DNA from: Guyparkeria halophila | GTDB lineage: Bacteria > Pseudomonadota > Gammaproteobacteria > Halothiobacillales > Halothiobacillaceae | DNA length: 64,000 bases | Direction: 5' to 3' | Assembly: GCF_034479635.1 (NCBI RefSeq) | Contig: NZ_CP140153.1 | Location: forward strand, 131,501-195,500 | Shown: piece after piece, positions 2,111-2,410 of the stretch | How the letters are laid out: each line of letters opens with the position of its first letter | Position numbering within the stretch: position 1 is the stretch's first letter | Made by a program: the position numbers and the translations under genes | Notes under the pieces: generated by a model | Told to the model about the DNA's origin: nothing | Database searches by the model: none | Seen by the model: the letters and a program-made list of their open reading frames with translations, nothing else

Positions 2111-2410
2111 CGGTTGGATTCCTGGGTTGAAAGATGGGTGTCGGGAGCCTCTGCGCGGGTAGCTGTGCCGCTCTGCGCGGCTTGAGCCGGGCAGATGCAA
2201 GGCATCCGCTCGCCGCGGCAGGGTGATTCCCTTGCCAATAACGGTAACGCCGCAGATGCTCGGCTCAAGCCGTGCCCTTTGGGGCCCTGCGACTCACCTG
2301 TCTCGGCATTGCAATTTGTTCGTTTGGTGCAACCACTCACTCCGGCGTCTCACGTTCGCCATGAAAGACTCGCAGGGACAGAGCGGCGCTGCTAACCGTG
2401 TAGAGATGCC
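2111..2410. other. 300-base gap between dut and argB containing a palindromic repeat
   Basis: This gap has no credible gene. It contains the structured repeat at 2178-2272 (separate entry). The remainder is unremarkable mixed sequence in which I see no clear promoter or terminator. Short open frames here lack ribosome binding sites and similarity to anything I recognise. Confidence 0.6.
2178..2272 (+). repeat. Palindromic structured repeat, copy A (67-base core)
   Basis: Perfect 12-base inverted arms (2178-2189 and 2261-2272, CGGCTTGAGCCG / CGGCTCAAGCCG) enclose a 67-base core. The core begins CAGATGCAAGGC (2192-2203), continues CGCCGC, then an imperfect hairpin (GGCAGGG...CCCTTGCC), and ends AACGCCGCAGATG (2246-2258). 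The same core ends at exactly the same spacing occur at 62741-62807 next to gyrB, but with entirely different arm and hairpin sequences. That pattern points to a repeat family under structural constraint. What it does is unknown. Confidence 0.7.

Follow-up and report, generated by a model that had tools for sequence, protein, structure and literature searches.

The window, a stretch of 64,000 nucleotides of Guyparkeria DNA, carries two similar repeats in two intergenic settings, and the question is what these repeats are, how they move and whether they act as DNA or as RNA. Their cores (2192-2258 in copy A and 62741-62807 in copy B) are 67 bases each, start with CAGATGCAAGGC and end with AAC(A/G)CCGCAGATG, just as an initial sequence-only reading had described them. 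We interpret the window repeats as copies of a non-autonomous MITE-type element that is mobilised in trans and carries a hairpin module independent of the transposase, and give this interpretation a probability of about 0.68. Membership of the MITEs is well supported by the anatomy and by insertion polymorphism; target repeats and matching IS ends point the same way in some other genomes, but both are missing in the window's own genome (G000, 2.45 Mb; G and L numbers denote the genomes and loci compared).

Anatomy of the element and its hairpins

Copy A has argB and dut as neighbours, both on the minus strand, and the dut stop codon (TAA, 2413-2411 on the minus strand) adjoins its right end. 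Copy B lies between recF and gyrB, both on the plus strand. These gene strands agree with the earlier statement that the core runs against transcription at dut-argB and with transcription at gyrB. The features of the two copies, and of a possible remnant, are the following.

2144..2410, plus strand: whole element of copy A, about 267 bp, between argB and dut
2149..2175, plus strand: left terminal inverted arm (P1) of copy A, 27 nt, 81% complementary to 2379-2405
2379..2405, minus strand: right terminal inverted arm (P1') of copy A, partner of 2149-2175
2176..2278, plus strand: hairpin A of copy A, holding the core 2192-2258 (G000:C1:133676-133778, 78.6 bits with the covariance model)
37537..37586, no strand given: possible arms-only remnant, 50 bp, two terminal-arm-like sequences face to face without a hairpin
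62691..62962, plus strand: whole element of copy B, between recF and gyrB, its limits set by the empty sites of sister genomes
62694..62724, plus strand: left terminal inverted arm (P1) of copy B, 31 nt, 94% complementary
62928..62958, minus strand: right terminal inverted arm (P1') of copy B, partner of 62694-62724
62725..62827, plus strand: hairpin A of copy B, holding the core 62741-62807 (G000:C1:194225-194327, 86.8 bits with the covariance model)
62832..62924, minus strand: hairpin B of copy B, a diverged inverted copy of hairpin A (G000:C1:194332-194424, 31.5 bits)

Both window copies are about 265 bp long with terminal arms of 27-31 nt, and these arms, with 203 nt between them, enclose a nested hairpin whose 24-nt arms are 83% complementary in each copy, which confirms that the differing outer arms of the original description still pair. 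Each core forms the tip of such a larger structure. That description was right in that the repeat is real, but it had overlooked the terminal arms, which lie outside the region it covered, and, in copy B, a second hairpin in inverted orientation; in copy A, the covariance model found no second hairpin at E 0.001. The elements are short, end in terminal inverted repeats and hold no transposase inside, the features by which a MITE is recognised.

Along its length the element shows, in order, the terminal arm P1, hairpin A (which contains the core), a small stem, then hairpin B and the other terminal arm. The two CAGATG boxes of hairpin A lie opposite each other, which produces a tandem G.A/A.G mismatch, and a GGC/GCC stretch is bracketed by bulges of AA and AAC. 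Most of 19 hairpin B sequences keep AAGGC and CAACGCC or near variants, and most have another mismatch where hairpin A has the CAGATG boxes. By eye, the inner stem is purine-rich in Streptomyces loci (L040 type) and in Kuenenia-labelled and Lachnospiraceae-labelled loci, and judging from its letters it could form more tandem G.A pairs. The copies inspected by eye show no constant GTAG at the foot of the hairpin. The fold of 272-base copies gave -139 to -196 kcal/mol among the copies listed. In Streptomyces G001 the standard form is 161 bp, and L149, L164, L177 and L290 are 27-28 bp longer.

The possible remnant at 37537-37586 fits the end pattern with two mismatches on one side and none on the other, against a background of 125 matches of this pattern in the genome versus 27 for the reversed control. 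Arms-only palindromes with ends like those of the element were also seen at G000:C1:1015784-1015842 (59 bp) and G000:C1:247081-247160 (80 bp). Since both are too short to hold the hairpin, movement may need no more than the ends.

Copy number, distribution and pairing

The 12-mer CAGATGCAAGGC occurs 23 times in the window's own genome and a reversed control pattern not at all; among these 23 copies with the exact core, three (L013, L026 and one of two in L019) are shorter and lack the second half. Searching this genome with R1, a covariance model restricted to hairpin A and derived from an alignment of 30 rows (A2), gave 62 matches at E<=0.001, 33 of them with at least 56.9 bits, and coordinates read by eye placed a weaker inverted neighbour match (hairpin B) beside 22 of these 33. 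The same model matched in 25 of 57 relatives and in 8 of 34 genera. The covariance search of the genome and its relatives that had been suggested at the outset thus returned many loci, not just two.

A cross-phylum pattern scan of genome contigs gave at least 118 stretches, with 80 loci among the matches listed. By our own estimate, the 20-letter search pattern is expected to produce about 7 chance matches in a collection of this size; R1 matches 79 of the 80 loci, and the 80 include 25 that are themselves rows of the model. The remaining locus, L048 from a Mycobacterium record, has no R1 match and an arm pairing of 4/12, and we took it as a chance match. Among the matches listed, the isolates with the core are by record title Guyparkeria, Thioalkalivibrio, Microbulbifer, Neptuniibacter, Halopseudomonas and Streptomyces, and the metagenome-bin labels include Acidobacteria, Desulfobacterales, Omnitrophota, Kuenenia, Bacteroidota, Verrucomicrobia, Lachnospiraceae and Borkfalkia. 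Because bin labels can be wrong, the isolates alone give two phyla. Viral contigs held 4 pattern matches. In a Kuenenia-labelled bin (L059, L090) several hairpins lie close by in one orientation, like a BIME-type cluster, and terminal arms were not found for the copy of this bin that was examined. The Omnitrophota-labelled contig L032 has hairpins at 3297-3395 and 4289-4388, one inside an open reading frame and the other past a stop codon.

Terminal arms (30 nt) with a partner matching at 24/30 or better were present in 27 of 55 loci and, with a shuffled arm, in 0 of 55; the other 28 loci fell below this level. The geometry is kept, the partner arm lying 186-204 bases past the core start in 22 of the 27 and at 81 in the short form. 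No score exceeded the Rfam gathering threshold in the window (0) or in 16 loci (0), and at E<=1 a search of 7 loci gave one match, which lies off the element. The literature searched gave no match to this element, the 12-base core string appearing in four papers of unrelated title. The hairpin element is new to Rfam and to this literature, though Chunjie or another MITE already described might prove to contain the hairpin.

Pairing between arms was compared within and between copies. In the window's own genome the terminal arms matched at 0.89 within a copy versus 0.74 between copies (n=23), and the hairpin arms at 0.85 versus 0.64 (n=22), with 0 of 2000 permutations in each case. Across genera, 90.7% of the cells of alignment A2 (30 rows) were paired, versus 63.0% when shuffled and 33-47% when slid, and covariation was 0.656 versus 0.180 in shuffles. 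Two-sided changes were found in 18 of the 24 pairs of A2, a count that 100 of 500 shuffles reached, and the weight therefore rests on the other pairing measures. The search pattern had fixed the core letters and left the arms free; among 56 distinct arm pairs (drawn from 76 of the 80 loci, with L030, L063, L068 and L095 dropped as cut off) 10.9 of 12 bases were paired versus 6.0 when arms were swapped (0 of 5000 permutations). In-register pairing was only 4/12 in L048 and in L096, the latter of which does match R1. The proposed constraint on pairing is consequently upheld by the swap tests and by the alignment, with covariation above that of shuffles and loci well beyond the first two. The further claim, that retained pairing suggests selection on structure, holds as far as the constraint is concerned but leaves selection unproven, since hairpin-templated correction of the palindrome could keep the arms complementary.

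Change after insertion was assessed by comparing 23 own-genome elements with 43 sister-genome stretches, which gave 10 orthologous pairs; one of these (105 aligned bases) was dropped, and the nine comparisons used represent eight loci. Over these nine, differing sites made up 92/1794 (5.1%) of paired positions, 94/550 (17.1%) of unpaired positions and 145/1779 (8.2%) of the flanks within 100 bases. Unpaired sites differed more than paired ones in all nine comparisons. As exceptions to the trend, the paired sites differed at least as much as the near flanks in three comparisons, two of them involving copy A and one the L019/L333 pair. One-sided changes at paired positions broke the pair in 41 cases and kept it in 26, by our own estimate near what is expected without selection on each pair, so that purifying selection on each pair is not obvious. 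Pairing seems to matter, or to be restored, while a copy stays in place, and both selection and palindrome correction fit this pattern.

Insertion sites and transposase partners

Copy B is missing at the orthologous site of G003 and G008, where the site reads through with 3 or 4 bases between the flanks, and also in G004, G006 and G007, where the flank match is looser; it is present in G002. Among 11 genomes, copy A has a full match in G000, G002 and G008, and in 8 of the 11 the flanking genes match and the element does not. Other intergenic sequence lies between the flanks in these genomes, so they are not clean empty sites. The empty sites, together with the lack of an orientation preference in Streptomyces described below, support a mobile DNA element, in line with the DNA-level role that had been thought more likely from the orientation of the two cores.

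In other genomes, 3-bp target repeats (the triplets TTA, TAA and TGA) were present at seven of nine elements tabled, which were chosen and had their ends set by eye; of the remaining two, L033 shows TA and L064 has one base different. This table replaced target counts for Acidobacteria, which were discarded for their 833 chance rows. In Streptomyces, TA is found on both sides in 24 of 28 rows and a 3-bp repeat in 0 of 28. Swapping flanks between Streptomyces copies still gave 24, and with TA nearly invariant a duplicated TA is indistinguishable from a TA that belongs to the end. The window's own genome gave no consistent target repeat, the 56 rows listed including some by chance.

A resident IS with similar ends was identified in two genomes. 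In Streptomyces G001, an IS of about 1.2 kb belongs to IS630 (NCBIfam NF033545, 151 bits); its ends differ from the MITE end pattern at 3 and 5 of 20 positions and lie in the same CTAG setting, and R1 found nothing above 8.1 bits inside it with filters off. In the proteobacterial bin G064, from which L082 comes, an IS of about 849 bp belongs to IS5 (NCBIfam NF033580, 153 bits). Its ends differ at 3 and 4 of 21 positions from those of the MITE in the same bin, and it has TTA on both sides and no R1 match inside. Since the same core occurs with IS630-like ends and with IS5-like ends, the hairpin looks like a module common to MITEs of unrelated transposase families. Outside G001 and G064, the loci examined gave no IS with matching ends. 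PF13358 is present in three of six element-bearing genomes searched for it, and PF01609 in five of six; in the genus Guyparkeria, PF13358 was found in 0 of 11 genomes and PF01609 in one of 11, which is not the window's genome. A search covering PF13358, PF01609 and Y1_Tnp found no helper transposase in the genus.

Candidates for a gene travelling with the hairpin, or for an autonomous copy, were also considered and rejected. An all-against-all comparison of 5200 frames from fetched loci gave, as its 30 largest clusters, mainly translations of the element and scattered homologs, and no transposase was recognised by eye in these clusters. Two loci were inspected by eye as possible autonomous copies flanked by inverted hairpins: the 1 kb that separates the two hairpins of L032 holds ordinary frames, and L083 has ordinary frames near an inverted partner. 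Ten loci, from the window's own genome and from unpaired Streptomyces ends, showed by eye no long arm pairs round a transposase.

Role of the hairpin and alternative explanations

We propose that a resident IS transposase would cut and paste the terminal inverted arms in trans, and that the element would enter TA or TNA targets, often at stop codons. Its inside would consist of one or two copies of the hairpin, with arms that vary yet pair and a conserved core. The hairpin would be a module independent of the transposase, lodged in MITEs with IS630-type and with IS5-type ends, and may act as folded single-stranded or cruciform DNA to which a putative factor common to many bacteria binds, perhaps thereby favouring transposition or tolerance. 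Of the two strands, the one with CAGATG would be active, because the complement would oppose C and T. For the role of the hairpin we favour recognition of the folded DNA by such a widely shared putative factor. The fuller idea is that MITEs of unrelated DDE families in several phyla have acquired a single hairpin module, with constant mismatches and bulges and with free arms, because a shared factor recognises the folded DNA and promotes spread or tolerance; this transferable "spread signal" is tentative, and we would place it somewhat below even odds.

MITEs are usually seen as deletion products defined by their ends only. Integron attC sites have variable but pairing arms and extrahelical bases and are recognised as folded single-stranded DNA, a likeness to the hairpin described here, although their core letters differ from it. 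The ends and the target type of our element resemble one resident IS of each of the IS630 and IS5 families, whereas the two IS copies examined are without the hairpin. In the relevant parts of a review, prokaryotic MITEs such as QMITE2 of Coxiella and Chunjie of Geobacter uraniireducens are described in single lineages, and they share with our element a length below 500 bp, terminal inverted repeats, target repeats (seen for our element in other genomes), intergenic position, many copies, a stable predicted fold and partial copies (PMC10969869). In contrast, the hairpin core and geometry found here recur across genera, phyla and the ends of two transposase families, Chunjie being compared by the description in that part of the review (PMC10969869). 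REP/BIME elements with TnpA-REP, as presented in the sections consulted, share strand-specific imperfect palindromes, conserved mismatches and high copy number (PMC8266576), whereas our element has DDE-type terminal arms and, in other genomes, target repeats of this type, and no consistent link to a Y1 gene. If our interpretation is true, structure conserved across phyla and transposase families would mean that the insides of MITEs have a function under selection, and would offer a way into the question of how non-autonomous elements spread in transposase-poor genomes.

Perhaps there is no selected structure at all, template switching or conversion correcting the palindrome and keeping the arms complementary, with the core an inherited relic. 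The few changes in stems compared with loops and near flanks at orthologous insertions and the excess of broken over kept pairs agree with this, but the opposed CAGATG boxes and the bulges have survived in different genera and phyla without being corrected away (exact boxes being required by the search pattern), and we consider it unlikely. We think it rather unlikely, too, that the element is a structured RNA family spreading as a MITE, the transcript of the CAGATG strand being the functional product and acting in trans. Such an RNA would fit the very stable fold, the conserved internal-loop letters, the strand-specific G.A mismatches and the smaller change of stems than of loops after insertion; however, the hairpin has no Rfam match, many elements hold two inverted hairpins, and there is no orientation preference in Streptomyces, which counts mainly against a cis-acting RNA. 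There, with position and orientation calls resting on a home-made GC3-based gene caller, a gene runs into the 5' side of the hairpin in 20 rows and reaches the opposite side in 16, with 5 rows counted under both (p 0.62). The 41 Streptomyces rows are those that the script recognised, L178 being counted twice and several added stretches being duplicates or unrecognised. A preference for the sense side seen by eye in 23 rows (14 versus 4 at stop codons) was gone once 33 more stretches had been added. The absence of an orientation rule in Streptomyces makes an mRNA element acting in cis unlikely. Selection at gene ends for a transcription terminator, or for an element of the mRNA 3' end, would explain why 31 of the 41 Streptomyces rows lie at the stop codon of a neighbouring gene, but is very unlikely given that both orientations occur, that copy A lies against and copy B with transcription, and that 4 of 23 own-genome copies lie between divergent genes (relative to the hairpin, the others are 10 plus-plus, 4 minus-minus, 3 convergent and 2 unclear). 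Stop codons offer a TA/CTAG target, so target choice can explain the position at gene ends; in Streptomyces the end of the element opens with a G that follows TA, which restores TAG at either junction and may make insertion harmless.

The sequence-only reading had also pointed to a RAYT (TnpA-REP) transposase, which would make the repeat a REP/BIME-like element moved by that enzyme. A strand-specific imperfect hairpin with conserved mismatches is indeed like the REPs of E. coli as described in the sections consulted (PMC8266576). Of the 57 relatives, 27 have Y1_Tnp and 25 the hairpin. Genus members with Y1_Tnp tend to have more hairpins (56, 64, 55, 62, 12 and 66, versus 0, 24, 18, 37 and 31 without it), though they differ in kinship and completeness, which may explain the higher counts. 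Against RAYT, 12-37 hairpin matches occur in six genomes that gave no match to Y1_Tnp (G006, G007, G008, G010, G016 and G022), and no hairpin was found at the nine RAYT loci fetched from the genus (L241-L249), three of which (L243, L244 and L246) have GTAG-type palindromes of their own. Eight further RAYT loci gave one weak match, at L234 outside the genus (24.4 bits, E 3.5e-4). In other genomes the element has DDE-type ends and target repeats. A RAYT helper is therefore not borne out; it is poorly supported and, in our view, extremely improbable. The palindromes beside the RAYT loci L243 (G000:C1:1539600-1543400) and L246 (G003:C6:862700-866500) are of the GTAGGTCGGGCTTCAGCCCGAC type and unrelated to the element.
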